Shown one piece after another: positions 1,594 to 18,528 of a stretch of 64,000 nucleotides of DNA. Origin of the DNA: Acinetobacter sp. C32I (GTDB taxonomy: Bacteria > Pseudomonadota > Gammaproteobacteria > Pseudomonadales > Moraxellaceae); NCBI RefSeq assembly GCF_023702715.1, contig NZ_CP098480.1, forward strand, positions 3,658,001 to 3,722,000, read 5' to 3'. Each line of letters opens with the position of its first letter. Position 1 is the first letter of the stretch. The notes below the pieces were generated by a model that was not told the DNA's origin, ran no database searches, and worked only from the letters and a program-made list of their open reading frames with translations. The position numbers and the translations under genes are program-made.

Positions 1594-2520
1594 ATGAGTT
1601 TGGCTGATCGTGATGGTTTTATTTGGCAAGATGGAAAATTAGTTGATTGGCGTGATGCAAAAATTCACGTCTTAACTCATACACTACACTACAGCATGGG
1701 TGTCTTTGAAGGCGTCAGAGCTTACGAAACCCCGAATGGTACAGCAATCTTCCGTTTGCAAGATCATACTAAACGCTTATTAAATTCAGCAAAAATTTAT
1801 CAAATGAATGTTCCATTTGATCAAGCGACACTAGAACAAGCACAAATCGATGTGGTGCGTGAAAATAAATTAGCATCTTGCTATTTACGTCCATTGATTT
1901 GGATTGGTTCTGAAAAACTCGGTATTGCCGCAACAGACAACACCATTCATGCCGCAGTTGCAGCATGGGGCTGGGGTGCATACCTAGGTGAAGAAGCAAT
2001 GGCACGTGGTATTCGTGTGAAAACCTCTTCATTCACGCATCACCATCCAAACGTGACCATGTGCAAAGCAAAGGCATGCGGTAACTATACCGTGTCGATC
2101 TTGGCACATCAGGAAGTGGCACGTTCAGGTTATGACGAAGCAATGTTGCTTGACCCACAAGGCTTTGTTTGCCAAGGTGCAGGCGAGAACGTATTCCTGA
2201 TTAAAGATGGCGTGTTGCATACCCCTGATTTAGCAGGCGGAGCGTTAGAAGGGATTACTCGTCAAACCGTGATTACCATTGCTAAAGACCTGGGTTATGA
2301 AGTGGTTGAACGTCGTATTACTCGTGATGAATTCTACATTGCCGATGAAGCATTCTTTACAGGTACTGCTGCGGAAGTAACCCCGATTCGTGAATATGAT
2401 GATCGTGAAATTGGTTGTGGTTCGCGTGGCCCGATTACCACTGTGATTCAAAAGACTTTCTTTGATGCAGTACAAGGTCGCAATGACAAATATGCACACT
2501 GGTTAACTTATATTAAATAA
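1594..2520 (+). CDS. ilvE: Branched-chain amino acid aminotransferase
   Basis: This PLP enzyme performs the last step of valine, leucine and isoleucine synthesis and the first step of their breakdown. The 308 residues match the usual family length. Fold-type IV features are visible: GVFEGVRAYE near residue 36, the PLP lysine at about K160 in the motif KAKACGNY (Ala-Cys where E. coli has Ala-Gly-Gly), QGAGENVF near 190, and the C-terminal FFTGTAAEVTPI. The ATG is preceded by an AAAATGGAG-type ribosome site. A strong terminator follows directly. In Acinetobacter this gene marks one boundary of the LOS outer-core locus. Confidence 0.97.
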   Translation: MSLADRDGFIWQDGKLVDWRDAKIHVLTHTLHYSMGVFEGVRAYETPNGTAIFRLQDHTKRLLNSAKIYQMNVPFDQATLEQAQIDVVRENKLASCYLRPLIWIGSEKLGIAATDNTIHAAVAAWGWGAYLGEEAMARGIRVKTSSFTHHHPNVTMCKAKACGNYTVSILAHQEVARSGYDEAMLLDPQGFVCQGAGENVFLIKDGVLHTPDLAGGALEGITRQTVITIAKDLGYEVVERRITRDEFYIADEAFFTGTAAEVTPIREYDDREIGCGSRGPITTVIQKTFFDAVQGRNDKYAHWLTYIK

Positions 2521-2660: not shown

Positions 2661-3821
2661 ATGAAAATTACAGTTGTGGGTGCGGGTTATGTTGGCTTAT
2701 CAAATGCCTTATTATTTTCCAAACAACACGATGTTATTGTCTTAGATATTGATAAAAATAGAGTCAAGCATATCAATCAAAAGGTATCTCCGATTAGTGA
2801 TACTTGTATTCAAAGTTATTTATCCGAGTCTCATATTGAAGCGACTTGCGATAAAGTGTTGGCGTACCAAGACGCTAAGTTAATCGTGATTGCAACACCA
2901 ACGAACTATAATCCTGAAACTAATTATTTTGATACTTCAAGTATTGAGGCTGTGATTGAGGATATTCAAGCCATTAATCCCAAGGCCTTAATGCTGATCA
3001 AATCGACTGTACCCGTAGGATATACTGTAGAAACTTCAAAGAAATTAGGCCTGAAAAATTTAATCTTTTCACCTGAGTTTTTACGCGAGGGACAGGCCTT
3101 ACAAGATAACTTGTATCCGTCTCGTATTATTGTAGGAGAGAAATCCAAGCGTGCGGAAAAGATAGCTAAGCTCTATCTTAAAGCAACTATTAAAAAAGAT
3201 ACTGTACTGCTCTGCGTAGATTCGACTGAAGCAGAAGCGATTAAGTTGTTTTCCAATACTTATTTAGCCATGCGAGTGGCCTTCTTTAATGAACTTGATA
3301 CCTATTGTATGAAGCATCAATTAAGTGCATTGGATATTATTAAGGGAGTAGCGCTTGATCAGCGTATTGGTGACCACTATAACAATCCATCCTTTGGTTA
3401 TGGAGGCTATTGTTTGCCGAAAGACACCAAACAGTTGTTGGCGAACTATCATGAAACACCACAAGAGTTAATTTCAGCTATTATTCGTTCTAATCAAACG
3501 CGGAAACAGGCGATAATTGAAGATATTCTCAGTCGTAAAGTTGCAAGTGTTGGCGTGTATCGTCTGACCATGAAAGCAGATTCGGATAACTTTAGGGAGT
3601 CGGCTGTACATGATGTATTGCAAGGATTGGCGGAACAGGGGATCCAAATTATCATCTATGAACCGACGCTGGATGCGAAAGCATACATGGGGCATCCTGT
3701 TGAACCCAGCCTACAAAAGTTTAAATCTAAATCTGATTTGATTATTGTCAATCGCATGGTGCCGATGTTTAGCGATGTAATGGAAAAGATTTATACCCGA
3801 GATTTGTTTGGGGTGAATTAG
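2661..3821 (+). CDS. ugd: UDP-glucose 6-dehydrogenase
   Basis: The enzyme oxidises UDP-glucose to UDP-glucuronate with two NAD+, supplying a uronic acid donor for surface glycan. The ATG at 2661 gives 386 residues starting MKITVVGAGYVGLSN, with the Rossmann GAGYVG at the very N-terminus as in E. coli Ugd (388 residues). The reading frame is open further upstream to 2565 but those codons overlap the ilvE terminator and look non-coding. PEFLREG, the catalytic-cysteine motif GYGGYCLPKDTKQL and the C-terminal YTRDLFG are all present. It is the first gene after ilvE and suggests that glucuronate or a derivative is part of the LOS made here. Confidence 0.93.
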   Translation: MKITVVGAGYVGLSNALLFSKQHDVIVLDIDKNRVKHINQKVSPISDTCIQSYLSESHIEATCDKVLAYQDAKLIVIATPTNYNPETNYFDTSSIEAVIEDIQAINPKALMLIKSTVPVGYTVETSKKLGLKNLIFSPEFLREGQALQDNLYPSRIIVGEKSKRAEKIAKLYLKATIKKDTVLLCVDSTEAEAIKLFSNTYLAMRVAFFNELDTYCMKHQLSALDIIKGVALDQRIGDHYNNPSFGYGGYCLPKDTKQLLANYHETPQELISAIIRSNQTRKQAIIEDILSRKVASVGVYRLTMKADSDNFRESAVHDVLQGLAEQGIQIIIYEPTLDAKAYMGHPVEPSLQKFKSKSDLIIVNRMVPMFSDVMEKIYTRDLFGVN

Positions 3822-3994
3822 TATTATTTTGAGTACGATCAATAATAAATATGCTAAAAGGATTGACGAATTAATACTAAAAAAAATGATGAGCTCTATG
3901 CTAAGATGAGGGCACATTCAGTGCATATGATTGAACATGTTTAAGATTCTAATAACACGTGTGCCTTCATATCTCAAGCATTTAAGGTTATCAG

Positions 3995-4750
3995 ATGGTA
4001 GATATTCAACAAAACTCGGCAACTCATGAAGACAATGTGATCTTGTGCATGAAATGGGGAACCAAATATGGTGCTGAGTACGTTAATCGTCTATATAACA
4101 TGGTGAAACGTCATCTGACTTTGCCTTTTAAAATGATCTGTTTGACAGATCGTACCGAAGGAATTGACCCGAATATTCAATGTTTTCCGATTCCATCTTT
4201 AGATTTGCCAGAAGGTAGCCCTGAGCGTGGTTGGAATAAGCTATCGACCTTTGAGCCTGATCTATATGGATTAAAAGGCAATGCGCTGTTTCTCGATCTG
4301 GATGTAGTCATCATTGATAATATTGACTGCTTCTTTGAAGCGGAAGGTGAGTTCTTGGTGATTCATGACTGGAAACGCCCGTGGCGAATTACAGGTAATA
4401 GCTCAGTTTATCGCTTCAAGCTTGGCGCTTTCCCTGAAATTCTGCCGTACTTCCGCGAAAATTTTGATGAAGTTCGTCAAAAGTTCCGTAACGAACAAGA
4501 GTATCTATCTTGGTTCGTACATAAAGAGGGTAAGCTCAGCTACTGGAATAAAGATTGGTGTAAGAGCTATAAATACCATTGCCTAAGAACCGTTCCATTT
4601 GCTTATTTTCAGCCGCCAATTAAGCCCAAAGGCGCAAAAATTATTATTTTCCATGGTGAGATTAATCCACCTGATGCAATTAGTGGTGGTGGTGGTAAAT
4701 GGTATCGCTATGTATTGCCATCAGACTGGATCAAAGATGCGTGGCAATAA
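3995..4750 (+). CDS. Glycosyltransferase, GT-A type with DxD motif
   Basis: This 251-residue soluble protein has a nucleotide-sugar binding DxD motif at D101-D103 in LFLDLDVVIID, after an N-terminal VILCMKWGTKYG strand. Tyr, Trp and His-rich segments near the C-terminus (IIIFHGEINPP) resemble GT8-like LOS transferases. It is inferred to add a sugar to the LOS core at the cytoplasmic face; donor and linkage cannot be read from the sequence. It follows ugd by 173 bases of AT-rich DNA, which may hold its own promoter, and is 31 bases before the Stealth gene. Confidence 0.75.
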   Translation: MVDIQQNSATHEDNVILCMKWGTKYGAEYVNRLYNMVKRHLTLPFKMICLTDRTEGIDPNIQCFPIPSLDLPEGSPERGWNKLSTFEPDLYGLKGNALFLDLDVVIIDNIDCFFEAEGEFLVIHDWKRPWRITGNSSVYRFKLGAFPEILPYFRENFDEVRQKFRNEQEYLSWFVHKEGKLSYWNKDWCKSYKYHCLRTVPFAYFQPPIKPKGAKIIIFHGEINPPDAISGGGGKWYRYVLPSDWIKDAWQ

Positions 4751-4781
4751 CTGTAAACAAATAACAGATTGAGATTGAGAC

Positions 4782-5792
4782 ATGAGCGCTAGCATACAAC
4801 CCATTGATATTGTGATTGCTTGGGTTGATGGGAATGATCTCAACCTGAAAAATAAACGACAGCAATATTTAGGGCAACAAGAAGCCTCAAATGCTGTAGA
4901 AGCAACTCGTTTCGCCAGTAATGATGAAATCTATTTCTGTATTGCCTCAATTTTAAAATATGTACCATATTGTGGGAAAATTTATGTAATAACTGATCAA
5001 CAGAAGCCAGTCTGGCTTGATCAGTTTGAACAACAAGGTTTATGCGCTGTAGGCAAGATTCAAGTAGTTGATCATCAGCAATTATTCCGTAATTATGAAG
5101 CGGCATTGCCGACATTTAACTCCTTGAGCATCGAAACAATGCTTTGGAATATTGAGGGCATATCGGATTATTTTATTTATTTGAATGATGATTTCTTTTT
5201 CAATCAACTTTCTCAACAGCAGGACTTCTTGCTCAATGAGCAAATGGTGATCTATGGGCATTGGGAAAGCAATTTAATTAAGAAAGCAAAATATCTTTTT
5301 AGAAAATTTATTCAAAACCAATTTGGTAAGGTTGCGCAGCCTAAATATTCGATTGCTCAAATGCTAAGTGCAGATTGTATTGGGCTAAATCGTTATTATG
5401 AAATACATCATCGTCCGCACATTTTAAGTAAAGTGCTTCTAACAACGTATTTTGAACAGAATGTTGGGTTATTACAGCGACAGATTTCCTATCGATTTAG
5501 AAATATCGATCAGATCTTACCTGTTGGGCTATCGAATCACTTGGCGATTCTGCAGCAACGGGCTGTTTTAAAACCAGATGTTGATATTGCCTATTTGAAA
5601 GATAGCCGTGATCTCGGTTCATTTATACAGGCTTTATCTAACGAACAGATCAAATTTGGATGTATACAAAGTCTGGATCAATTGAATAAACAGGATGAAG
5701 CGCGTGTCCGTCTCGGCCTCATCGAAAAGTTTAGAGATGTTTTGCCTAGCCAAATTCAACCGACGATTGCAGAACAAGCAAAGGATAAATGA
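4782..5792 (+). CDS. Stealth-family sugar-phosphate transferase
   Basis: The 336 residues carry the hallmarks of Stealth proteins, which transfer hexose-1-phosphate from a nucleotide sugar to make phosphodiester-linked glycans. Conserved region 1 is IDIVIAWVDGND (residues 8-19); region 2 runs to FIYLNDDFFF (131-140), holding the metal-binding acidic residues; a region-3-like HHRPHILSKVLL lies near residue 210. There is no signal peptide or membrane segment. The stop overlaps the next start by four bases (ATGA at 5789), indicating translational coupling. It implies that the LOS made here may contain a phosphodiester-linked sugar, which is an inference from family only. Confidence 0.85.
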   Translation: MSASIQPIDIVIAWVDGNDLNLKNKRQQYLGQQEASNAVEATRFASNDEIYFCIASILKYVPYCGKIYVITDQQKPVWLDQFEQQGLCAVGKIQVVDHQQLFRNYEAALPTFNSLSIETMLWNIEGISDYFIYLNDDFFFNQLSQQQDFLLNEQMVIYGHWESNLIKKAKYLFRKFIQNQFGKVAQPKYSIAQMLSADCIGLNRYYEIHHRPHILSKVLLTTYFEQNVGLLQRQISYRFRNIDQILPVGLSNHLAILQQRAVLKPDVDIAYLKDSRDLGSFIQALSNEQIKFGCIQSLDQLNKQDEARVRLGLIEKFRDVLPSQIQPTIAEQAKDK

Positions 5793-6550
5793 TGAAAGTT
5801 GAAACGTATCTGATTAACCTTGATGGTAGTGATCAACGCTTGGCCAGTGCGACAGCGCAATTGCAGCAAGCGGGTTGGCTATTTGCTCGTTTTTCGGCCT
5901 ATGATGGACGTGGTAAGGCCTTATCTGAGTTCGAACAGTACGATGATACAGAGGCTCAACGAATTTTAGGTCGTAGTTTGATCAACTCGGAGTTAGGGTG
6001 TTATCTAAGTCATTATGGTTGTGCTGAAAAGTTTCTTGAAAGTGATGCAGATTATTTGGTGGTTTTAGAGGATGACATTCAGGTTCTACCTAATTTTAAG
6101 CAGAATCTTGAGTCGCTGCTGAATTATCTGGATCAACATAAAGAATTAGATTGGTATGTAGTGAACATAGCGGCGAAAAAGAAAAAGCTCGCCAAAGATA
6201 TTGTGCAGATGGATCACTATAACCTTTGGCATGCTTACTATTTTCCAATTCGCGGTGTGGGATTACTCTGGTCACGTAAAGGCGCAGAAGAATTTGTCAA
6301 AATAGGTAAAAATATAAATGTGCCTGTTGATATCTTCTTTCAGAGTTGGTTGAGTAAAAATGGAAAGGGCTTAGGTGTATGGCAGCCCTTTGTACAGCCT
6401 GCTGGATTAGACAGCGATATTTTAGGTACGGTTGCAACACAGGGTATTCAGCGTAAAGACTTGGAAAAGCGCGATTCGTCTCATGGTTTAAAGAAACAGA
6501 AGCGAATGTGGCGTGACCGTTTTTATGCTTTTAAGCATCTTTACTTTTAA
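5789..6550 (+). CDS. Glycosyltransferase family 25 protein (first copy)
   Basis: This 253-residue protein has the GT25 layout of LOS transferases such as Lex2B or LgtB: an N-terminal TYLINLDGSDQRL strand, the central GCYLSHYGCAEKF helix, and the acidic metal site VVLEDDIQVLP near residue 92. It starts in a four-base overlap with the Stealth gene (ATG at 5789, next codon also ATG). It is clearly more diverged than the three tandem GT25 copies at 11912-14387 and carries a basic C-terminus, so it probably uses a different acceptor. The donor sugar is not readable. Confidence 0.85.
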   Translation: MMKVETYLINLDGSDQRLASATAQLQQAGWLFARFSAYDGRGKALSEFEQYDDTEAQRILGRSLINSELGCYLSHYGCAEKFLESDADYLVVLEDDIQVLPNFKQNLESLLNYLDQHKELDWYVVNIAAKKKKLAKDIVQMDHYNLWHAYYFPIRGVGLLWSRKGAEEFVKIGKNINVPVDIFFQSWLSKNGKGLGVWQPFVQPAGLDSDILGTVATQGIQRKDLEKRDSSHGLKKQKRMWRDRFYAFKHLYF

Positions 6551-6619
6551 TTAAATATTCTGGGCAAATCACTTGAGTAAAAAGCTGAGGTGATTTGAAG
6601 ATATGGCTGAGTGATCTGT

Positions 6620-7531
6620 ATGAAAATATTTAAAAAAATATTCTATCTCTTAAAGTTTTATACGATGTACTCGAATAAACAGAGAAGGGTAAACGAAGCC
6701 ATAGACAATGAAGCAGATCTGATTGTACTTGATCCGACTATTTCTGATGCGCTCATTCCAAAGAAAATCTGGATGTATTGGGAAGGACCACTGGCTGGAT
6801 TTGTGGAAAAATGTGTTGAACAGGTTAAAAAGACCAATCCGGATTATGAGGTTCATTTTCTCACACCAGATACAGTGAAAAACTTTTGTGATATTGATTT
6901 TGCTCGTTTCCCAAAGGCAACACCACAACAAAAGGCCGATTTACTTCGTTTTGAGTTGATTTATCAATATGGTGGCATTTGGTTGGATGCAAGCATCCTT
7001 GTTTATGAAAGCTTAGACTGGATTCAGGAACTGATTGCGAAGAATAATACCAACAGCTTTGCCTATTACCGTGCCAAGAATACAACACTTAAAGATTTTC
7101 CTGTCTTAGAGAATTGGTTATTGGCCAGCGCAGAGAAAAATATCTTCTTTAAAGAATGGTTTGATGAGTTGGCGAAAGCCATTGAAATGACGCCTAAAGC
7201 CTATCTGCAAAAATTGAAAGAAACAGAACCTGATTATCAGGATATGTTTCAACAGATTGGTCGTCTGGAATATCTAGTGGCGTATGTGGCCTGTCAGAAA
7301 GTGATGCGTAATCATTTGCCGAGTATGTGCTTAATTAACTGTGATCAAAATGCGCTGTATTTTCAGGTAAAGCACCAATGGGTGAAAGAAAAAGTACTGA
7401 TCGATATGGCAATCAACTACCCACCTCAGCAAATGCCAAAGCTGATCAAGCTTGCAGGGAAGGAAAGAAAAACCCTGAGTCATTATTATGAAAAGGGCAT
7501 GTATCTGGAAGGTTCTCTGCTCGATATCTAA
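6620..7531 (+). CDS. Capsular-polysaccharide-synthesis-type glycosyltransferase (PF05704/GT32-like)
   Basis: The protein (303 residues from ATG 6620; GTG at 6611 is an alternative start) has IPKKIWMYWEGP near residue 50, a QQKADLLRFELIYQYGGIWLDAS block near 105-128, and a basic N-terminal helix that could touch the membrane. This block is typical of the Caps_synth/GT32 group, where the first Asp binds the nucleotide sugar; the usual second Asp of DxD is Ser here, as in several Caps_synth members. It converges on the next gene with only 18 bases between stop codons and no visible terminator. Confidence 0.75.
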   Translation: MKIFKKIFYLLKFYTMYSNKQRRVNEAIDNEADLIVLDPTISDALIPKKIWMYWEGPLAGFVEKCVEQVKKTNPDYEVHFLTPDTVKNFCDIDFARFPKATPQQKADLLRFELIYQYGGIWLDASILVYESLDWIQELIAKNNTNSFAYYRAKNTTLKDFPVLENWLLASAEKNIFFKEWFDELAKAIEMTPKAYLQKLKETEPDYQDMFQQIGRLEYLVAYVACQKVMRNHLPSMCLINCDQNALYFQVKHQWVKEKVLIDMAINYPPQQMPKLIKLAGKERKTLSHYYEKGMYLEGSLLDI

Positions 7532-7549
7532 AACAAGAGCTTTCAGGGT

Positions 7550-8446
7550 TTAAAGTAAGGTTTTCGGGTCAATCTTCTCAAATGCTTGTACAGCACTGCT
7601 TTGAGACAGGTTGAAAACTTTAATCTCTTTTTCTTTAAATAGCGTTGCAGCGACATCAAAGGCTTGAAATACTTCATTGACATGATGATTTAAGGTCGTT
7701 GGTTGCTGTCCGTCAATGCTTTCATAAAAACGTGGCTGAGAAAAATTATTCATGTCTAAACCCGCGATATAAATTTCTTTATATCCCAGAGTAAAGAGAA
7801 TCTGAAGGGCAACATAAGCCACGGTAAAATAGTCAAAAGTACCTTTATAAACATCGAGTGAGAAACCCATGTCTTTGTGAATAAAGAAGTCAGTTTCATT
7901 TTGATCAAAGTGTCTAGCATGCTCTAGAAAGGTTTCGACTTGACCATCAGTAATTGTTTCAATGGTTTTGATCTGACAATGAATATCTTCAATCCGAACG
8001 TGTCTTAAAATCAGGTCTAGGCAACGTGGTGTTGTGTAAAACGTGCAATCGCTATTCAAGACTTTTTGGACCAGATCGAAACGGCAGTTCACAAAGTTAT
8101 GATCAATAATGACATAACTAGAAAATGGAATTGAATCAAATGCGATGGCACCGTTGACCCCGATATAATCGCTATCGCCTTGATGCAGAATTTCGGGATC
8201 TAGTTGTTGAATAGAAGGGCCTGTCGCCACTAGCATACATTTTTTATGAGAAATTTTTGCTGGAAGGAGATTATTGGACACCAGTTTTTTCTTAAAATAA
8301 ATTTTCTCAATACGGTTCTGTGAATCGCGCTCCACGCTATAAAGTGGCCAGTAGCGACGATTATGTTTTGCTGCTTTAGGGAACAAAAGCTTATAAACCA
8401 ATTTATAAATACTTCTAGAAATGCGATCTGAAAAGAAGTGAACCAT
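7550..8446 (-). CDS. Putative GT42/DUF115-like glycosyltransferase
   Basis: No close family can be named with certainty. Features resembling GT42 sialyltransferases and DUF115 proteins are visible: a Rossmann-type CMLVATGPSIQQLD (about residues 70-83), YIGVNGAIAF at about 94, TVAYVALQILFTLGYKEIYIAGLDMNNF near 215-240, and a C-terminal IKVFNLSQSSAVQAFEKI. In Campylobacter Cst enzymes the same three blocks bind CMP-sialic acid. No sialic-acid synthesis genes are in this window, so a different activated sugar (such as CMP-Kdo) or an import of sialic acid is possible. The N-terminal helix is basic and hydrophobic. It lies on the minus strand, opposite to its left-hand neighbours. Confidence 0.55.
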   Translation of the reverse strand: MVHFFSDRISRSIYKLVYKLLFPKAAKHNRRYWPLYSVERDSQNRIEKIYFKKKLVSNNLLPAKISHKKCMLVATGPSIQQLDPEILHQGDSDYIGVNGAIAFDSIPFSSYVIIDHNFVNCRFDLVQKVLNSDCTFYTTPRCLDLILRHVRIEDIHCQIKTIETITDGQVETFLEHARHFDQNETDFFIHKDMGFSLDVYKGTFDYFTVAYVALQILFTLGYKEIYIAGLDMNNFSQPRFYESIDGQQPTTLNHHVNEVFQAFDVAATLFKEKEIKVFNLSQSSAVQAFEKIDPKTLL

Positions 8447-8523
8447 TTAAAAACTCATTTATAAAATCATTGAGACGAATGAAACTAGATAACTTGGTTT
8501 AGGTCATCTAGTTTCGATTGATA

Positions 8524-9426
8524 TTAGTCGTCTAAAGAAAAGCTTTTCTTTTTCAATTTGGTTTTTAGACTATGTAATGAACGAGCAAACCAATTTCTAT
8601 CTTCTGGGCGAGTTACTTTGTTGCCGCGATAATGAATTTGGGTCGCTTTAGAAAAATCACCAAAGGGCTCAATACGGTAGTTCTCTGGGCGATAACCCGC
8701 TGCAATGGCTTCTTGATAATATTGGTCGAACAGTTCAGTCAGGTCTTCACGTGGGTGCGGCATGATTTTACCGTCGAACCAGTGTTTTTGCCCTTCAGCC
8801 TCTAAACGAGGTAAGGAGTATTTATGGCTGAATTGTGTGCCCATATCTGAATAATGCAAGATTTTGATTTGGTCTGCGGCTAAACCTTCACCATCAATAT
8901 TGTTATATGAGTCCTGATAAGATTGAACCAACTTTGGTTTATCTTTTAAAAGCTGCATCAATTTTTTATGGCTCTCTGGATCTGCCTGAATATCTTTTAA
9001 TGGAGGAAGGTATTGTTTGGCTTTCTCACAATCCCAAACACAAGTACACAGCCTAGCTGAGTTCTTTCCACCTTTTGCAATCACGATTGCTTCGTCCTTT
9101 TTAGGATGTGCCCAAAGTTCTGAAATGTCACATAACACCACAACATCCGCATCCATATAAATGGCACGACCTTCGAAATTACATGACTCTGGGATTGCCC
9201 ATCTAAAACCTGAAAAAGGCGTTGCCCAATGTTCCGTATGCCAGCCTTCACCTGATTGTTGATTGGTATACCATGGACTATTTGGATCCTGACTAAGCTG
9301 CATCCATATGATTTCAACGGGATGTTTGGTATGCTTGCGGACACTATAGTCCAGTACCATCATTTGCTCTAAGTCGCAGTTGTTTGGGTCACAACCAACG
9401 AAAATTTTAATTGTGGAGTTAGACAT
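8524..9426 (-). CDS. Glycosyltransferase family 8-like protein
   Basis: The 300-residue protein starts IKIFVGCDPN, has FSGFRWAIPE and the metal-binding YMDADVVVL (DxD at D92-D94), then HYRGNK near the C-terminus, a GT-A layout like glycogenin and LOS galactosyl or glucosyl transferases. It is upstream of and probably co-transcribed with the gene at 7550-8446 (77-base gap). A highly basic C-terminal tail (KTKLKKKSF) may bind the membrane. Acceptor and linkage are unknown. Confidence 0.75.
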   Translation of the reverse strand: MSNSTIKIFVGCDPNNCDLEQMMVLDYSVRKHTKHPVEIIWMQLSQDPNSPWYTNQQSGEGWHTEHWATPFSGFRWAIPESCNFEGRAIYMDADVVVLCDISELWAHPKKDEAIVIAKGGKNSARLCTCVWDCEKAKQYLPPLKDIQADPESHKKLMQLLKDKPKLVQSYQDSYNNIDGEGLAADQIKILHYSDMGTQFSHKYSLPRLEAEGQKHWFDGKIMPHPREDLTELFDQYYQEAIAAGYRPENYRIEPFGDFSKATQIHYRGNKVTRPEDRNWFARSLHSLKTKLKKKSFSLDD

Positions 9427-9540
9427 GACTAGCTTCCAGTTTTAAGGCTTTATTGTTAATTATAGTCTAAAAAGAGCGACCCTTTTTGAAATATTCTCTA
9501 CTTCTGGTTATGTTATAAAGTAGTTATGTGAGGCAATGTA

Positions 9541-11508
9541 ATGATAATAAATACATTTATTGAAAAAGCCAAAAGGAAAATTGCCCAAGCAGAGATTGTC
9601 TCTTTTGATATTTTTGATACCTTATTGCTACGTCCGTATTTATCTCCACGAGATTTATTTTTACATATCGAGATTGATCAATGTTTGGAAGGTTTTGCTC
9701 TGGCTCGAAGAGAGGCTGAATTTAGAGCGAGAAAGAAAAATCCAGATCGACAAGAGATCTGCTATGACGATATTTATAATGAAATTGAGGCTGAGTTTAA
9801 ATGCGCCAAAGAAATTGAATTAAACTGGGAGTTTATGGTTTTACAACCGAACCCAGAAATGAAAATAATTTGGGATTATGCCCTTGAATTAAATAAAAAA
9901 GTTATTGTAATTTCGGATATGTACCACTCATTTGAGAGTTTGCAGAAATTACTGATTAAAAATGAATTTCATGCTTTTGAGCATTTATATGTGTCTAGCA
10001 GTTATGGTAAAACCAAGAAAAAAGGTACATTGTTTGAGCAGGTTTTTTCTGATTTAAAGGTGAGCGCACAAGATATTGTTCATATTGGTGATAATAAGAA
10101 AGGTGATTATAGAGCACCTGCGAAACTAGGTGTCCAAGCAATTTTATATAAACAGGTTGCACAGCAGTTCTTAGCTGTTGATGAGCGGGCAAGACGATTT
10201 ACAGAACAAGGCACGCTCAATTTAGGCAAGAGTATTTTGGTCGCAATGCTAGCAATGCGGTGGTTGAACCAGTCATTGGTACAGAATAAGCGTCCATATT
10301 GGCAAGAGATTGGTTATGGCTATGCTGCACCTTTGGCTTATGGTTATAGTAAATGGATTGAAACAACAGCACTAGAAAAAAAACTTGATCATCTTTTGTT
10401 TGTTGCTCGAGATGGCTATTTACTGCAAAAGGCTTTCAAACAATTTCATGTTGGTGGAATTAAAACCAGTTATGTATATGCACCACGCCTACTGAATCTG
10501 GTGTACCGACTTGATTATGAGAAGCAGAATATTGAAAGTGCTAAAGCGATTGTCGATTTTTATGCGCATAAATATGCAGATATTGCTGCATTAACAGAAG
10601 GGCGATCTTTTAACAAAGCCAGTAATTATCACGATTTTATTCAAGAGCATAAGCATCATTTTGAACAACATGCTGAGCAAATGTACGCTGATTATCATCA
10701 TTATATTGATACGATCATAGGCAAAGATGAGCAGGTCGGAATAGTTGATAGTAAGACCGTTGCTTTCACCTCTCAGAAAATGTTGGAAGATGTGTTACAG
10801 CATCCAATCAATGGTTTTTATTGGTCTACTTTATTGCCTTATCGTACTAAAAAATATGCATTCGATGCTTTTATTCCTAATAATTTGAATATCTTAGATC
10901 CGAAAGTATTTACCAAGAACTGGAAATTTGTTGAATTACTTTTAAGCTCACCAGAGTTTCCAATTTATGGTGTTTCGATCAATGGAGAGCCGATATATAA
11001 AGATAATCCGAATCAGGATGAACACCTTGTTAAGGAAAATTATGCTGAAATTGTTCTAGGAGCTGAAGCTTTTTTTGAGGATATTAAAACCATTTTTGGT
11101 CAAATCAACCTTTATCTGGAGGGAGGGGATCTTGTAGCGTGGACAAATATTTTTTGTGATTATCCAGAGCATATTGATATTGAAAAGATGAATGAGGTTC
11201 GGTTAGCAGTTGATGTCTTACATCATGGTTCTACACCACTATTTTCGGTGAAGACATCGTTCACAGATTTTCTGAAGCAACCTAAATCTACTCTCAATAT
11301 GTTGAAGGGCTTAACTTGGAGAACCCCGATACAATCACTGCTTTTACATGTGTTTAAGCCATTAAAGGTGAAAAAAAATCATAAGAAACACATTAAAATT
11401 GGCTTTTTTCCATATCTGAAGACGCGCTATTTTATCTGGACATTGTTACTGTTTAACAAGTTTTCATTGCAATTGAGCTTAGGTAATTATAACCAGCACC
11501 AGTCTTGA
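9541..11508 (+). CDS. HAD-superfamily protein with a large C-terminal domain
   Basis: Residues 1-220 form a HAD hydrolase: motif I SFDIFDTLL (nucleophile D23, Phe where many phosphatases have the +2 Asp, T27), motif II VISDMY near 122, a lysine region YGKTKKKGTLF, and motif IV HIGDNKKGDY near 180. Residues 230-655 form a separate domain with conserved-looking FVARDGYLLQKAF and a basic C-terminus. Such HAD fusions occur in bacterial polysaccharide loci, but their reaction is not established. A role in processing a sugar phosphate or phosphoglycan for the LOS is inference. It diverges from the GT8-like gene. Confidence 0.7.
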   Translation: MIINTFIEKAKRKIAQAEIVSFDIFDTLLLRPYLSPRDLFLHIEIDQCLEGFALARREAEFRARKKNPDRQEICYDDIYNEIEAEFKCAKEIELNWEFMVLQPNPEMKIIWDYALELNKKVIVISDMYHSFESLQKLLIKNEFHAFEHLYVSSSYGKTKKKGTLFEQVFSDLKVSAQDIVHIGDNKKGDYRAPAKLGVQAILYKQVAQQFLAVDERARRFTEQGTLNLGKSILVAMLAMRWLNQSLVQNKRPYWQEIGYGYAAPLAYGYSKWIETTALEKKLDHLLFVARDGYLLQKAFKQFHVGGIKTSYVYAPRLLNLVYRLDYEKQNIESAKAIVDFYAHKYADIAALTEGRSFNKASNYHDFIQEHKHHFEQHAEQMYADYHHYIDTIIGKDEQVGIVDSKTVAFTSQKMLEDVLQHPINGFYWSTLLPYRTKKYAFDAFIPNNLNILDPKVFTKNWKFVELLLSSPEFPIYGVSINGEPIYKDNPNQDEHLVKENYAEIVLGAEAFFEDIKTIFGQINLYLEGGDLVAWTNIFCDYPEHIDIEKMNEVRLAVDVLHHGSTPLFSVKTSFTDFLKQPKSTLNMLKGLTWRTPIQSLLLHVFKPLKVKKNHKKHIKIGFFPYLKTRYFIWTLLLFNKFSLQLSLGNYNQHQS

Positions 11509-11911
11509 GCTTAAATTTCGATGTTGTCAGCTCTGTATTTTGGTCTGAGCAGGGTTAGTGAGTTTGGGCCATTTTTTGACGTGGATGCTGCTTGGCAAAT
11601 TTGTATTCTTGTCAGTAATTTGTTGTATTTGTTTTTTACCGTATAAATAAAAGGATTTTATCTTTTTTTATCGTATTGATTTTATTTGATTTATTTTATT
11701 CGCTTTTGTCGTTTTGTAATCTAATAAATTTTAGCAGTGAGAAGAAAAAACAACTATTTTCTGAAATACTGATGCTTATCCATGACTTACAAGGGCTTAG
11801 CTTAGGCAACAGTCAAGCACACTTGAAATAATGTACATCATAATCAAAAACAAGTATTCTTAGCGCCTGTAGGCATGTCGCCTAATTTGTCTGAATTACT
11901 CCTATCCCGAT
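11509..11911. other. AT-rich intergenic region upstream of the GT25 array
   Basis: No open reading frame or RNA family was recognised in these 403 bases. The middle is a T-rich, low-complexity stretch (11640-11720). A short inverted repeat TCAAG...CTTGA lies at about 11812-11827, and GGCATGTCGCC near 11871 resembles one arm of the palindrome at 50608-50625. Promoters for the GT25 genes are presumably here, but none is clear enough to place. Confidence 0.4.
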
Positions 11912-12688
11912 ATGAAAAAGTTTGTTGTCAGTCTCTCTAGCGCAATCGAGCGCCGTAATCATATTTCATCTCAATTTGAGAGACAGGGAATAGAGTTTAG
12001 CTTTTTCGATGCCATTACCCCTGATATTGCTGCATCTGATGCGCAAGCCATGAAGCTGAGTGTGCACGAAAATTATATTGCCAAAGGTGAACTTGCCTGT
12101 TTTATGAGTCATGTGCATTTATGGAAAAAAATTGTCGATGACAATATTCCATACATGGCCATTTTTGAAGATGATATCCATTTAGGGGAAAAGGCTAATA
12201 AATTCTTAAATCAATCTGATTGGATTGAGCTAGACTGGCATTTGATTAAACTGGAAGCATTTACCCCGAAGGTAATTCTAGGTGCCAAATGTAAAGAATT
12301 CCCGCAAGAGGGACGAGAAATTTATAAATTAATCGGGAAAAACTTAGGTACAGCAGGTTATATCTTGTCACAGCAGGGTGCAAAATTCTTATTAAATGAA
12401 ATTAATAAAATGGACTATATCATTCCATTAGATAATTTTATGTTTGAATATGCTGTTAAAAACCATAACTTTATGATGTATCAAATGCAGCCTGCATTAT
12501 GCATTCAAGATACGATCTTGCATTATCGCTCTACCAGTATTCAACTAAAAAGCCAGTTGACCTCTGAAAGAAAGAAAAGAATGCATGCAAATAAGACCAA
12601 TGGTTTACAAAAAATTCTGGTCGAGTTATCTCGAATTACCTCACAATTGAAGATTACACTGTTTGCTCGTCGAGTGACTTTCAAGTGA
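11912..12688 (+). CDS. Glycosyltransferase family 25 protein (tandem copy A)
   Basis: A 258-residue LOS transferase of the GT25 family. It shows FVVSLSSAIERRNHI at the N-terminus, GELACFMSHVHLWKK near residue 65, the metal site AIFEDDIHLGE near 85, and LGTAGYILSQQGAKF near 140. A basic tail of about 40 residues follows. The stop overlaps the GTG start of copy B by four bases (GTGA at 12685). It probably adds a hexose to the core; donor unknown. Confidence 0.87.
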   Translation: MKKFVVSLSSAIERRNHISSQFERQGIEFSFFDAITPDIAASDAQAMKLSVHENYIAKGELACFMSHVHLWKKIVDDNIPYMAIFEDDIHLGEKANKFLNQSDWIELDWHLIKLEAFTPKVILGAKCKEFPQEGREIYKLIGKNLGTAGYILSQQGAKFLLNEINKMDYIIPLDNFMFEYAVKNHNFMMYQMQPALCIQDTILHYRSTSIQLKSQLTSERKKRMHANKTNGLQKILVELSRITSQLKITLFARRVTFK

Positions 12689-13458
12689 AAAATTTTGTTA
12701 TTAGTTTAAAATCGGCTTCTGATCGTAGAATACATATTGAAGAACAATTTGGTAAAAAAGGAATTCCATTTCATTTTTTTGATGCGATTGAACCTTCGCA
12801 AATAGATTCTCAAGCTGAAAAAATTGGCCTTTCACTTCGTCAAGGTGATCTAAGTAGAAATGAATTGGCATGTTTATTAAGTCATGTTTCTTTATGGCAA
12901 AAAGCTGTTGATGAAAAAATACCCGCAATTGCAATCTTTGAGGATGATATTCATTTGGGGGATGATGCTGAACTATTCTTAACACAATCAGACTGGTTGG
13001 GCGTTGATATTGTCAAGGTCGAAAAATCTTATTCCAGTGTCATCTTGGATTTAGAAAAAAAGCAGCTTTTCGATGAGAAAGATTTTAGTTTAAGACGGTT
13101 GAAAAAACCACATCTTGGTGCAGCGGGTTATATTCTCTCTTACAAGGGAGCTATCGTGTTGCTTGAATATATGAAAGAACAACCCGTTTTAGATCATGTT
13201 GATCAGATCATTTTTCGAAAATATGTTGCTCAAGGGGAATGTGGAATCTATCAATTAAATCCAGCATTGTGTATGCAGGACTATTTATTAAATCCACATA
13301 ATCAAAAGTTTAAAACCACACTTCAATGGCGTAATAAACAGAAAGTTAAAGTGAAAGGATTGCAAAAGTTATTTCGTGAGCTCAAGCGTTTTTTGACTCA
13401 ATTGAAAGAACTTCCTTATAAAACTAAACTAAAATTTATGGTGACTGATAAACATTAA
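12685..13458 (+). CDS. Glycosyltransferase family 25 protein (tandem copy B)
   Basis: A 257-residue paralogue of the preceding gene, started by GTG within a four-base overlap. It keeps FVISLKSASDRRIHI, NELACLLSHVSLWQK, AIFEDDIHLGD and LGAAGYILSYKGA in the same positions, and a C-terminal basic tail. Differences are concentrated in the middle (residues 105-140) and the region after 170, where acceptor specificity is usually set in GT-A enzymes. Translational coupling to copy A is expected. Confidence 0.86.
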   Translation: MKNFVISLKSASDRRIHIEEQFGKKGIPFHFFDAIEPSQIDSQAEKIGLSLRQGDLSRNELACLLSHVSLWQKAVDEKIPAIAIFEDDIHLGDDAELFLTQSDWLGVDIVKVEKSYSSVILDLEKKQLFDEKDFSLRRLKKPHLGAAGYILSYKGAIVLLEYMKEQPVLDHVDQIIFRKYVAQGECGIYQLNPALCMQDYLLNPHNQKFKTTLQWRNKQKVKVKGLQKLFRELKRFLTQLKELPYKTKLKFMVTDKH

Positions 13459-13580
13459 TCTATCATCTTGTTTTAGGATTATTGATTTTAGCTTACAGTG
13501 TAAAGACGTACACGCAGTTTATTTTATATTTTTTAATTGTATAATTCTGCTGTTTATTCTCAAATAAGATGGTTTCCTAA

Positions 13581-14387
13581 GTGAATGTTTTTGTTATTAG
13601 TTTAGATTCTGCAATTGAGAGAAGACAGCATATTAATGCGGAATTTAAAAAATATTTAGTAGATTTCAGCTTTTACAATGCTATTACGCCAGTTACATCT
13701 GATGATGCAGCAAATAGTGTTGGGATTAACTTGGCCCGACAGGGAAGCTTAACAAAAGGTGAAGTAGCGTGTTTGTTAAGTCATATTATGTTGTGGAAAA
13801 AGATTGTTGATCTTGACTTAGAGTATATGGCAATTTTTGAAGATGATGTCTATCTTGGCGAAAATATACAGAGCTTTTTTAATGATTTTTCATGGATACC
13901 AAATGACGTTCACATTATCAAATTAGAAGCTTTTGATAAAAAAGTTGATCTGTCTTTTTTCTTGAAACTATCAAAAAATGGTCGAAGCTTATATCATCTG
14001 AAAGGGATGCATTTAGGTGGGGCCGGTTATATTTTATCAAAAGCAGCCGCTAAACATTATCTTAAGCTGATTGTAGATCTACCAGAATTGGTTCCTGTAG
14101 ATCATATCCTATTTGGTTGTGATGTAAAAAAAGGGAAGTATAAAGCGTATCAAATGACACCTGCAATTTGTGCGCAAGATTTTTATCTTCACGATAAATA
14201 TCACAATTTTGGCAGCCATCTTGAAGAGGATCGTGCTGTTCGGCATCAGGCTGAAAAACTTGCGCGACTTCAACAAAAGCAAAAAATGAGTCTATCTCTT
14301 AAAATAAAAAGAGAGCTTTTAAGATTGCTTTTTCAAATTTTGAAACTTAAGGATTTATCCGCTTACCGTACAGTGAAGTTTAAATAG
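13581..14387 (+). CDS. Glycosyltransferase family 25 protein (tandem copy C)
   Basis: The third copy (268 residues, GTG start) sits 122 bases after copy B and keeps VFVISLDSAIERRQHI, GEVACLLSHIMLWKK, AIFEDDVYLGE and LGGAGYILSKAAA. It is not frameshifted. The gap before it is AT-rich and may contain a promoter. It converges with the acyltransferase gene at 14415 with 27 bases between stops. All three copies look intact, so they are probably separate transferases and not decaying duplicates. Confidence 0.86.
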   Translation: MNVFVISLDSAIERRQHINAEFKKYLVDFSFYNAITPVTSDDAANSVGINLARQGSLTKGEVACLLSHIMLWKKIVDLDLEYMAIFEDDVYLGENIQSFFNDFSWIPNDVHIIKLEAFDKKVDLSFFLKLSKNGRSLYHLKGMHLGGAGYILSKAAAKHYLKLIVDLPELVPVDHILFGCDVKKGKYKAYQMTPAICAQDFYLHDKYHNFGSHLEEDRAVRHQAEKLARLQQKQKMSLSLKIKRELLRLLFQILKLKDLSAYRTVKFK

Positions 14388-14414
14388 TTTTAAGATTGTG
14401 AAATCAATAATGAC

Positions 14415-15281
14415 TCATTTGTAAGCAGATTCAGATTCTCCGCCCCGAAAGCGTTTATAACCCCACATATACTCGGCAGGAAAGCGGTTGATCATTAGCT
14501 CAACTGCTTGATTAAGTGCGGTTGTGGCAACTGCGATATCTCGATCATATAATTTTGGATCGTTGAGATCATCACAATACACATCAAAACCTGCGCCATC
14601 TTCACGACGGAAGCAACTTAAACCGACTAAGCGACATTGGGTTTTTTGTGCCATTTTACTGGCCAGTGTGCTGGTCAGGCATGGAATTCCAAAAAAAGGA
14701 ACCACGACACCACCAGATGGGTCTGGGACATGGTCGGGCAAGATTACACTGAAGCCACCTTGCTTTAGATTTTTAAACAGGGCTTTTACACCAGATGCAT
14801 CAGTCGGGACTAAAGTGGCGTTAAGACGCTGACGCGCATGTAAGGCAAAAGCATTAAAGCCAGAATCTTTCATGGGTTTGTACATGATGGTTGGAATACC
14901 GTATTGGTGTACCCATGCATTCATCATTTCCCATGTCCCCAGATGCGGGGTAATAATTAGTGCACCTCTTGGATCACTGAGCGCATCGGTTAATACGTCC
15001 AAATGATGTACCGTATGAATCTGTTGGATGCTCCATTCAGGTGGCATCGCCCAGCATTTACCAGATTCAATATAGCTAAGGCATTGTTTGGTGACGCTTT
15101 CTCTCGCGAGCTGTTCTTTTCGTTCTAGACTAAGTTGAGGATAGGCTAGCCCTAAGTTGACTCTGGTTTTCCACAGCATACTTTTATTCGGATTTTGATT
15201 GATAAAGTATGCTGCCACTTTTGCGATACTACGCAAAAGTGCTAAAGGGAGAATACGAAGTAGGGTAGTGTAAAACGACAT
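14415..15281 (-). CDS. LpxL/HtrB-family lipid A acyltransferase
   Basis: The family transfers secondary acyl chains from acyl-ACP to lipid A at the inner membrane. The 288 residues show an N-terminal hydrophobic helix (LRILPLALLRSIAKVAAYF), the catalytic H-x4-E motif as H113-LGTW-E118, ILPDHVPDPSGG near 185 and FFGIP near 197, with a C-terminal EYMWGYKRFRG. Length agrees with LpxL-type enzymes. It could be LpxL, LpxM or a paralogue; sequence alone does not decide. The start follows the small membrane protein gene by four bases, suggesting one transcript with it. Confidence 0.85.
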   Translation of the reverse strand: MSFYTTLLRILPLALLRSIAKVAAYFINQNPNKSMLWKTRVNLGLAYPQLSLERKEQLARESVTKQCLSYIESGKCWAMPPEWSIQQIHTVHHLDVLTDALSDPRGALIITPHLGTWEMMNAWVHQYGIPTIMYKPMKDSGFNAFALHARQRLNATLVPTDASGVKALFKNLKQGGFSVILPDHVPDPSGGVVVPFFGIPCLTSTLASKMAQKTQCRLVGLSCFRREDGAGFDVYCDDLNDPKLYDRDIAVATTALNQAVELMINRFPAEYMWGYKRFRGGESESAYK

Positions 15282-15629: not shown

Positions 15630-17411
15630 TTATTTTTCTTCAGCTTTTGGCTTTTCGCGTAAACGAATACCTAAGTCACGCAATTGATTTGCTTCAACTG
15701 GTGCAGGTGCTTGTGTTAATGGACATTCAGCTGTCTTGGTTTTCGGGAATGCAATTACATCACGAATAGAAGAAGCACCTGTCATTAACATGATCAAGCG
15801 GTCAAGACCAAATGCCAAACCACCGTGCGGAGGCGCACCATAACGTAATGCATTCAATAAGAAGCTGAATTTCTCTTCTGCTTCTTCTTCACCAATACCT
15901 AAAGCTTCAAAAATTGCTTTTTGCATTTCTAAAGTATAGATACGAAGTGAACCACCACCGATTTCAGTACCGTTCAGTACCATATCGTATGCAACAGAAA
16001 GGGCTTCACCTGGATTGCTCTTCACTTCTTCAACACTTGATTTTGGTAGTGTGAATGGGTGGTGAACAGAAGTCCATTTGCCATCATCAGTTTCTTCGAA
16101 CATTGGGAAGTCAACAACCCAAAGTGGCGCCCACTCACAAGTTGTCAGCTTCAAGTCATGACCGATTTTCACACGAAGTGCGCCCATCGCATCATTTACA
16201 ACTTTGGCTTTATCCGCACCAAAGAACACGATGTCTCCATTTTCAGCACCAACACGTTTTAATAGATCAAGCACGATTGGCTCGATGAATTTTACGATTG
16301 GAGATTGAAGACCTTCGATGCCTTTTTCAAGTTCGTTGACTTTGATGTAAGCCAATCCTTTCGCACCGTAAATGCCTACGAATTTAGTGTATTCATCAAT
16401 CGCACTACGTGGTAATGAACCAGCACCAGGAACACGTAAAGCAACGATACGGCCTTTAGGATCTTTTGCAGGACCAGCGAATACTTTGAACTCAACGTCT
16501 TGCATTAAGTCTGCAACGTCAACAAGTTTCAATGGAATACGCATATCTGGTTTGTCAGATGCATAGTCGCGCATTGCGTCAGCGTAAGTCATACGTTCAA
16601 ATTTATCGAATTTTACATTCAATAATTCGTTGAACATTTTAACTGTTAAGCCTTCCATTAAATCCATGATGTCATCGTCACTCATGAACGATGTTTCAAC
16701 GTCGATTTGGGTGAATTCAGGCTGACGATCCGCACGTAAATCTTCGTCACGGAAACATTTCGCAATTTGGTAATAACGGTCGATACCACCCACCATCAAC
16801 AACTGTTTGAACAATTGTGGTGATTGTGGAAGCGCGTAGAAGCTACCATTTGAAACACGGCTTGGCACTAAATAGTCACGTGCACCTTCTGGTGTCGCAC
16901 GTGTCAAGATTGGGGTTTCAACGTCTAAGAAACCATGATCTTCAAAATAGTTACGGATCAAGTTGGTCACTTTAGAGCGGAAACGTAAGCGCTCTAACAT
17001 TTCTGGACGACGGATGTCCAAGAAACGGTATTTCAAACGAATTTCTTCAGAAATATTGGTGTTTTCGTCATTTAATGGGAATGGCGGAGTATCAGAAGCT
17101 GCAAGAACTTCGATCTCTTTACCTAAAACTTCAATCTGACCACTCACCATGTTGGCATTTTCAGTACCTTCATAGCGACGACGAACACGACCTGTAATTT
17201 TTAATACAAATTCTGAACGTGCTTTATCTGCTGTTGCGAATGCTTCAGGTGTATCTGGATCGATCACCACCTGTACGAGACCATCACGGTCACGCATATC
17301 AAGGAAAATCACACCGCCATGGTCACGGCGACGGTGAACCCATCCGCATAAAGTCACGGTTTGATCGATTTGGGCTTCTGTTAAAGAGCCACAGTAATGA
17401 GTGCGCATCAT
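15630..17411 (-). CDS. aspS: Aspartyl-tRNA synthetase
   Basis: A class II aminoacyl-tRNA synthetase of 593 residues, normal for the bacterial type with a GAD insertion. An N-terminal OB-fold anticodon domain ([23 protein letters not shown]) precedes the catalytic core with motif 2 [20 protein letters not shown] near residue 215 and motif 3 [16 protein letters not shown] near 535. Two adjacent ATG codons could serve as start. In Acinetobacter this gene marks the second boundary of the LOS outer-core locus. Confidence 0.98.
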
Positions 17412-17555: not shown

Positions 17556-18326
17556 TTAAAATGATTTTAGATGGTGTTTACGATCCAAAAATAAGAATAA
17601 GAGACAAGCTATAGTAAAGACTGTTAAGCCAGCTTGTGTAAACTCATTAATTGATTTACCAATAAAAAAATAGCGTTCACTGTTCCAAAGTTCAGCACTG
17701 ATATGGCGGCTATAGTCTAAAACTGAGAACAGCCCATAAAGGATAGAAAGGATAATACTGATCAACACAAATCCTTTGAGTTTAGCTGGAACGGGATCGT
17801 GATGTTGATGGGCTTTATAATAATGCCAGCACATTCTTATGAGGAACGGCAAAGCAATAATGGATGACCCGATCTGTAATATAAAATGTAATGGATAACT
17901 AAATCCTAATAATAAAATGTTCTGAGCTAGAATTTCTTTAAAAGCAAACGTTCGGAAATCGAGATGGGTGAGTCCATCCCAAATCAAATGCGTGCTGATC
18001 CCCAGTATCAGTGCTAGACAATTGAGAAAGCTGAAAGAAATGAAATCATCCAGTGAGTGAATATTTAAAGGGTGTCTGATTTCAAGACAGCGATAGGTCA
18101 CAGGACGATAGATTAAATACCACAAGAGGCAAAAAAATAATCCAATGGGTAGATTCGGAAATAAGATGCCTGACCACTGGTGGGTTAAAGCAATATTTTC
18201 TTGCGTAAATAATCGATAAAGATCGGGGGTCATACAGCCAATCGCCAAGGCTGCAACAGGCAAATGACCCTGACTTAATTTAGATAAAGGTGGGGCAAGG
18301 ACTGCATGAGAAAGTGTAAAAGGCAT
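17556..18326 (-). CDS. DUF4184-family integral membrane protein
   Basis: The N-terminus MPFTLSHAVLAPPL with a following GCMTPDLYRLF and the later STHLIWDGLTH are the signature of DUF4184 proteins. The histidines and aspartates (H7, the PD pair, H and D of HLIWDGLTH) suggest a metal site like that of YdjM-type membrane hydrolases. About five to six hydrophobic segments are visible in 256 residues. The substrate is unknown. It is divergent from the ligase-like gene at 18529. Confidence 0.7.
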   Translation of the reverse strand: MPFTLSHAVLAPPLSKLSQGHLPVAALAIGCMTPDLYRLFTQENIALTHQWSGILFPNLPIGLFFCLLWYLIYRPVTYRCLEIRHPLNIHSLDDFISFSFLNCLALILGISTHLIWDGLTHLDFRTFAFKEILAQNILLLGFSYPLHFILQIGSSIIALPFLIRMCWHYYKAHQHHDPVPAKLKGFVLISIILSILYGLFSVLDYSRHISAELWNSERYFFIGKSINEFTQAGLTVFTIACLLFLFLDRKHHLKSF

Positions 18327-18528
18327 AATCAGAAAAGTAAGATAGATAATGAGATCTTACGCGAATATCGTGAGAATAAATAACAAAATTTGTACATAAT
18401 AGTGATTATCGTTCCATGGTTTGCTTGTGTTGTGTTGTACGCCTATTTTTGTTTAAATAATAAAAATGGAATTTTTCTATTTTTATTATTTAAACGTTTG
18501 CAAATGTTGATGAGGTTTGGTTTTTGTA

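Follow-up and report, generated by a model that had tools for sequence, protein, structure and literature searches.

An ilvE–aspS core locus of Acinetobacter sp. C32I that lacks KdoT and GnaT, and a proposed alternative start of the core

Which enzyme starts the core in an Acinetobacter strain whose core locus lacks the established first transferase? The question is raised by the ilvE–aspS interval of Acinetobacter sp. C32I (12 genes in 13.1 kb; genome 4.19 Mb), which lies in the window analysed here, a stretch of 64,000 nucleotides (NZ_CP098480.1, positions 3,658,001 to 3,722,000). In A. baumannii, gtrOC1 is the only gene common to all 22 outer core locus (OCL) types (PMC10327509). According to a report of December 2025, its product is KdoT, which adds a third 3-deoxy-D-manno-oct-2-ulosonic acid residue (KdoIII), and GnaT (LpsB) adds N-acetylglucosaminuronic acid (GlcNAcA); a section heading there states that KdoT homologues "can be found throughout Acinetobacter" (PMC12856342). 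We found no match to the KdoT family (Mito_fiss_Elm1, PF06258) in the C32I locus or in the whole genome, and no GnaT match in this genome at E ≤ 1e-60; in L239 the neighbourhood of the LpxM-like gene holds no GnaT. Without the one gene that all 22 types share, the locus equals no catalogued A. baumannii OCL type. We propose, as the probable reading, that it specifies a lipopolysaccharide (LPS) or lipooligosaccharide (LOS) core type that replaces the KdoT–GnaT start, with Hyp1, a predicted glycosyltransferase (GT) encoded in the locus, adding alpha-glucose to O-5 of KdoI to give a Moraxella-type core.

Hyp1 and KdoT are strongly exclusive across the genomes examined. Among 175 Acinetobacter genomes, 89 had KdoT, 82 had Hyp1 and none had both, so that KdoT was absent from 86. 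The four with neither were two partial genomes (G030, 65% complete; G111, 64% complete), one without a strong aspS match (G032) and one whose core locus is cut at a contig end (G159). In a set of 149 Moraxellaceae genomes, which overlaps the 175 by at least 41 Acinetobacter, KdoT was present in 48, Hyp1 in 89 and neither in 12, and no genome had the two together. Among the genomes from other genera, KdoT occurred in 27 (one, G203, a fragment) and Hyp1 in 69 (one, G238, a weak match of 37%), again never jointly. Exclusivity also held where a start gene had moved: KdoT of G160 lies 1.04 Mb from aspS with Hyp1 absent, and Hyp1 of G138 lies at 0.76 Mb of a different contig with KdoT absent. Because these relocated cases are still exclusive, the rule is not one of allelism at a single spot alone. 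We found no statement of KdoT/Hyp1 exclusivity in the literature searched, a search that most subscription papers fell outside.

GnaT follows KdoT. Identified as the GT4 protein with the EX7E glutamates E283 and E291 (numbering as in PMC12856342), it was found in 91 of the 175 genomes, namely all 89 with KdoT, G159, and a single one of the 82 with Hyp1 (G050), where its frame is interrupted by a TAG stop. The gnaT gene is far from the core locus (3.46 Mb versus 0.58 Mb in G047). Beside a conserved LpxM-like gene, GnaT was present in four of four KdoT genomes and missing from eight of nine Hyp1 genomes, the ninth being G050. In G050 (L240) the stop-interrupted frame adjoins the LpxM-like gene and has the look of a remnant from an earlier KdoT-type core.

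The two types have changed places repeatedly on single-gene trees, with minimum numbers of type changes of 13 for aspS (100 labelled rows), 12 for DUF4184 (95), 8 for ilvE (79) and 7 for glnE (74). A naive Fisher test gives p = 1e-45 but ignores kinship; the fair test is one of independent pairs. In 11 such pairs, taken over supported branches of the aspS tree, GnaT and KdoT changed together in 10 or 11 and in opposite directions in none (median p 0.001).

Locus architecture was read from 20-kb stretches fetched by hand-picked region from 100 of the 175 genomes (72 Hyp1-type, 27 KdoT-type, one neither). Together with the window these cover 73 of the 82 Hyp1 genomes and 27 of the 89 KdoT genomes; most genomes in which aspS is near the end of a contig (G015, G139 and G033 are examples) or which fell outside the best matches listed were left out, and G050 was taken by the position of its WaaZ-like gene. 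The start gene fell outside the fetched 20 kb in seven Hyp1-type and two KdoT-type stretches (in one of the two, G046, it is at the stretch edge). Dropping loci without ilvE in the stretch left 62 closed Hyp1-type loci, all with Hyp1 and none with KdoT, and 24 closed KdoT-type loci, all with KdoT and none with Hyp1. KdoT came first after ilvE in 23 of the 24. Hyp1 came first in 28 of the 62; in the remaining 34 between one and three genes, usually a Ugd module, stood ahead of it. A frequent backbone of the Hyp1-type loci is Hyp1–Stealth–GT25a–Caps (Stealth in 46, GT25a in 49 and Caps in 41 of the 62).

Hyp1 has a predicted GT8-type GT-A fold, matched over the whole domain, with a DxD motif (D101, D103) that is invariant. 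Domains were assigned with Pfam and NCBIfam profiles, family matches being listed at E 0.001, and at that level Hyp1 matched no Pfam family, Glyco_transf_8 included. Its nearest named kin, at 96% each, are in A. gyllenbergii, Acinetobacter sp. Ac_5812 and A. genomosp. 15BJ. Orthologues 62–64% identical stand in the block aspS–LpxL-like–Hyp1 in M. lacunata, M. bovoculi and M. oculi, and the same three genes occur in a row in nine of 29 more distant records (L158–L186), named Moraxella and Psychrobacter among them; one Psychrobacter record (L177) reads aspS–Hyp1–Stealth–GT25a. The M. catarrhalis core is heptose-free and has alpha-Glc-(1-5)-Kdo (PMC6332130). The likeness lies in the Hyp1 orthologues at the aspS–LpxL-like block of Moraxella species, whereas the downstream genes differ.

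Several further observations concern Hyp1. In two Burkholderiales records where the neighbour was tested, it stands beside LapB (L171) and beside a Wzy_C ligase (L173). A second paralogue, 36–41% identical to that of the window, is found in some Moraxellaceae of genera g7 and g9 (G180, G205, G213, G273 and others), within about 5–12 kb of the first in several genomes. A record titled "Streptomyces cinereus JCM 3040" (L170) is Moraxellaceae-like (aspS 78%, ilvE 76%, GT8-like 70%, Hyp1 61%) and is mislabelled or contaminated. A contig of a metagenome-assembled genome named "Candidatus Kurthia equi" (L150) carries an Acinetobacter-type Hyp1 (80%), probably by contamination.

We infer every sugar, linkage and order of transfer in the following scheme from the observed gene content, exclusivity, joint loss of GnaT, synteny and predicted folds. 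WaaA, as established for A. baumannii and assumed here, would make Kdo2-lipid IVA. Hyp1 would then transfer a single sugar (most likely alpha-glucose) onto KdoI at O-5, the arrangement of the heptose-free Moraxella core; this step would replace both KdoT, which puts KdoIII onto O-5 of KdoI, and GnaT with its GlcNAcA. The two starts thus share the ilvE end of the locus and, as proposed, the acceptor; they differ in that KdoT is a GT-B enzyme with CMP-Kdo as donor and comes with GnaT, both absent here. The Stealth, GT25a and Caps_synth enzymes and a variable trio of GT25 enzymes may extend the chain, with UDP-glucuronate from Ugd. A WaaZ-like enzyme may add an extra Kdo from CMP-Kdo, onto KdoII by analogy with WaaZ, and its GT8-like partner may decorate that Kdo. 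The finished core could be an acceptor for the WaaL-family ligase encoded beyond aspS.

A wider form of this proposal, which we rate about as likely as not, is that Moraxellaceae have two exclusive core starts, KdoT–GnaT (Kdo3–GlcNAcA) and Hyp1 (glucose on O-5 of KdoI), competing for one hydroxyl of KdoI. Lineages would have switched repeatedly, with the unlinked gene lost or gained each time; the WaaZ-like/GT8 pair would restore a third Kdo elsewhere in part of the Hyp1 lineages, and A. baumannii would show one of two core states rather than the norm of the genus.

The plainest competitor is that Hyp1-type and KdoT-type loci are haplotypes exchanged as whole blocks at a single recombination hot spot, in which case exclusivity would say nothing of a shared acceptor. 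Both genes do occupy the ilvE end, and outer core (OC) loci are known to be exchanged (PMC4172580); yet the unlinked gnaT follows KdoT, and exclusivity persists with the relocated genes and outside Acinetobacter, which leaves mere allelism unlikely. Hyp1 could also be the first core transferase but use another sugar (glucuronate, galactose or glucosamine) or another Kdo hydroxyl, making the inner core new and not Moraxella-like. Ugd fits this, being in 41 of the 62 closed Hyp1 loci and none of the 24 closed KdoT loci (one open KdoT stretch, L083, has it). It is missing, however, from the other 21, so UDP-glucuronate is not an obligate donor supplied there, and the Hyp1 orthologues beside aspS in Moraxella, together with the glucose on Kdo of M. 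catarrhalis, also make another sugar or hydroxyl improbable. The initial annotation saw an ordinary, uncatalogued LOS outer-core type with a uronate, a phosphodiester and hexoses added by GT25 enzymes. Ugd, Stealth CR1/CR2 and four GT25 genes are indeed present, and the sugar content is compatible with a Hyp1 start; but that account overlooks that KdoT and GnaT are lacking, that Hyp1 is a backbone gene in 82 of 175 genomes and that a WaaL-family gene is present, and as a full explanation it seems doubtful.

Several points weigh against the proposed Hyp1 start. The core structure proposed for strains with this locus is a prediction from genes, and the GT8 fold predicted for Hyp1 leaves its donor unfixed. 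Hyp1 is no more than a candidate orthologue of Lgt6, the first core transferase of M. catarrhalis and a Kdo alpha-1,5-glucosyltransferase; none of the 120 proteins listed bears the name Lgt6. Allelism by itself could keep apart two starts that occupy one locus; the unlinked GnaT and the relocated genes speak against it but are no proof of shared acceptor chemistry. A GnaT-like frame persists in one Hyp1 genome (G050), and the 12 of 149 Moraxellaceae genomes with neither start mean that a third way or assembly gaps exist. The trees are of single genes at or near the locus, from a sample that over-represents Hyp1-type genomes.

Table 1. Features of the ilvE–aspS interval and its flanks, with positions in the window
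Feature	Position	Strand	Basis
ilvE, left flank	1594..2520	+	Pfam Aminotran_4
Ugd, UDP-glucose 6-dehydrogenase (UDP-glucuronate supply)	2661..3821	+	Pfam UDPG_MGDP_dh domains; TIGR03026 342.7 bits
Hyp1, 251 aa, predicted GT8-fold glycosyltransferase, proposed first core transferase on KdoI in place of KdoT	3995..4750	+	
Stealth-family putative sugar-phosphate transferase	4782..5792	+	Pfam Stealth_CR2 99.5 bits, Stealth_CR1 35.1 bits
GT25a transferase	5789..6550	+	Pfam Glyco_transf_25 87.9 bits; synteny
Caps_synth / Gly_transf_sug family transferase	6611..7531	+	Pfam 67.6 bits
WaaZ-like putative CMP-Kdo (KdoIII) transferase	7550..8446	-	NCBIfam TIGR04437 69.7 bits (cut-off 200)
GT8-like transferase	8524..9426	-	Pfam Glyco_transf_8 20.6 bits (cut-off 24.3); co-occurrence with WaaZ-like gene
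HAD fusion protein, 655 aa	9541..11508	+	HAD about residues 57-205
GT25b transferase	11912..12688	+	Pfam Glyco_transf_25 152.9 bits
GT25c transferase	12685..13458	+	Pfam Glyco_transf_25 135.9 bits
GT25d transferase	13581..14387	+	Pfam Glyco_transf_25 137.4 bits
LpxL-type lipid A acyltransferase, adjoins aspS	14415..15281	-	Pfam Lip_A_acyltrans 136.2 bits
aspS, right flank	15630..17411	-	Pfam
DUF4184 / Zn_dep_PLPC protein, between aspS and waaL	17556..18326	-	Pfam
WaaL-family O-antigen ligase, between aspS and TonB receptor	18517..19785	+	Pfam Wzy_C 88.3 bits

The genes between the flanks (Table 1) are the 11 of the initial annotation, each an open frame where it had been placed, plus one LpxL-like acyltransferase. 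Pfam matches bear out ilvE and aspS as the borders of a core locus, and Pfam/NCBIfam matches support Ugd, Stealth, Caps_synth and the GT25 genes as first named; all four GT25 proteins passed the PF01755 cut-off of 24 bits, at 87.9–152.9 bits. In the Stealth protein CR1 and CR2 were matched, and CR3 and CR4 were not listed at E 0.001. The HAD domain of the fusion protein is less sharply drawn, TIGR01549 being above its cut-off and two Pfam scores (25.7 and 22.4 bits) just under theirs (26.4 and 23.8); residues from about 206 to 655 have no Pfam match. The pair first called DxD transferases are Hyp1, with its predicted GT8 fold and no Pfam family, and the GT8-like protein, whose Glyco_transf_8 match is weak and under the cut-off. 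A uronate and a phosphodiester in the core are plausible from this gene content. The observation of this gene set thus holds and its first interpretation is partly supported: the set is unusual against A. baumannii, less so within the genus, where the backbone gene Hyp1 is in 82 of 175 genomes. The lack of KdoT/GtrOC1 (the chief difference), the LpxL-like gene and the WaaL-family ligase had gone unremarked.

By sequence identities the locus is a mosaic, as the suggestion of modular assembly had it, its parts matching the loci of different species at different identities. The part from Caps to GT25d is at 73–95% to A. genomosp. 15BJ, A. proteolyticus and A. vivianii, to which Ugd is at 56% and Stealth at 52–53%; Ugd is at 86–91% and Stealth at 68–75% to loci of A. 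haemolyticus, A. junii, A. beijerinckii and similar species. The gene set is not a chance one, since two fetched closed loci (L014 and L017) hold relatives of all 12 window genes, at 52–96% identity. Relatives of the HAD fusion were in three of the 100 fetched loci (L010, L014 and L017), each with GT25b-c-d, making four loci with the window.

The WaaZ-like transferase and its GT8-like partner are, by their distribution, an accessory module. Each was found in the same 28 of the 175 genomes (a 29th WaaZ-like match, in G065 at 24 bits, was excluded), and they adjoin in all 25 loci read. The initial annotation had called the first of them GT42/DUF115-like; a predicted Maf/GT42-like fold, matched over most of the domain, agrees with this, and its WaaZ-like nature had been missed. 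It matches the enterobacterial Kluyvera RfaZ at 40% over 96%, full length, and a 48-sequence alignment including that protein has 30 invariant columns. It departs from enterobacterial WaaZ in the GT8-like partner gene, in a core without KdoT and in falling short of the 200-bit equivalog cut-off of TIGR04437, for which reason we call it WaaZ-like only.

Beyond aspS the order is DUF4184 protein, Wzy_C-family ligase and TonB receptor. WaaL of non-baumannii species lies between aspS and the TonB receptor (Kenyon 2014, PMC4172580), and this gene, with both that place and the Wzy_C domain, is a putative ligase. A WaaL match was found in only nine of 101 examined stretches, window included. It suggests LPS rather than only LOS, so that the LOS label first given to this strain may be wrong.

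Set beside the catalogued types, as the initial annotation had advised, the locus matches no A. baumannii OCL type. Likeness to OCL1–OCL22 lies in the ilvE–aspS place, the mix of GT25, Gly_transf_sug/Caps_synth and Stealth genes, and modular exchange. Apart from lacking gtrOC1, the locus differs from A. baumannii OC loci in the WaaL-family gene beyond aspS and in Ugd and the HAD protein, neither of which is in the OCL gene-product table (PMC10327509, Table 2); none of the 89 KdoT genomes holds a match to Hyp1 or to the WaaZ-like protein. GtrOC6, GtrOC28, Orf1 and Orf2, tabulated with no Pfam family, were left out of the sequence comparison with the locus. One record named A. baumannii, ACIN00150 (L135, G048), has Hyp1 and the WaaZ-like gene and no KdoT, and is possibly of a misnamed species.

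Non-baumannii precedents exist. That A. haemolyticus lacks homologues of the A. baumannii OCL genes is already known (PMC7326120, 2020); the available text of that report places an O-acetyltransferase, a capsular phosphotransferase and a UDP-glucose dehydrogenase in its ilvE–aspS interval, and leaves the replaced first core step unnamed. OC loci of A. variabilis are also reported to differ from those of A. baumannii (PMC12904642). In A. haemolyticus CIP 64.3 (L031) Ugd, Hyp1, Stealth, GT25a, Caps, WaaZ-like and GT8-like genes stand in the same order as in the window; such loci differ in having an AT3-SGNH acyltransferase (645 aa in L016, in pieces in L031) where the window has HAD–GT25b-c-d.

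Should roughly half of the species rely on a different enzyme at the KdoT point, the conserved Kdo step becomes one option, and two states would have to be reckoned with in core structure, in serology and possibly in phage receptors and the polymyxin response. An OCL typing scheme taken over from A. baumannii would find its common first gene missing from about half of the genus. Exclusivity offers a sharp and cheap test of this, with one predicted enzyme and one predicted hydroxyl.

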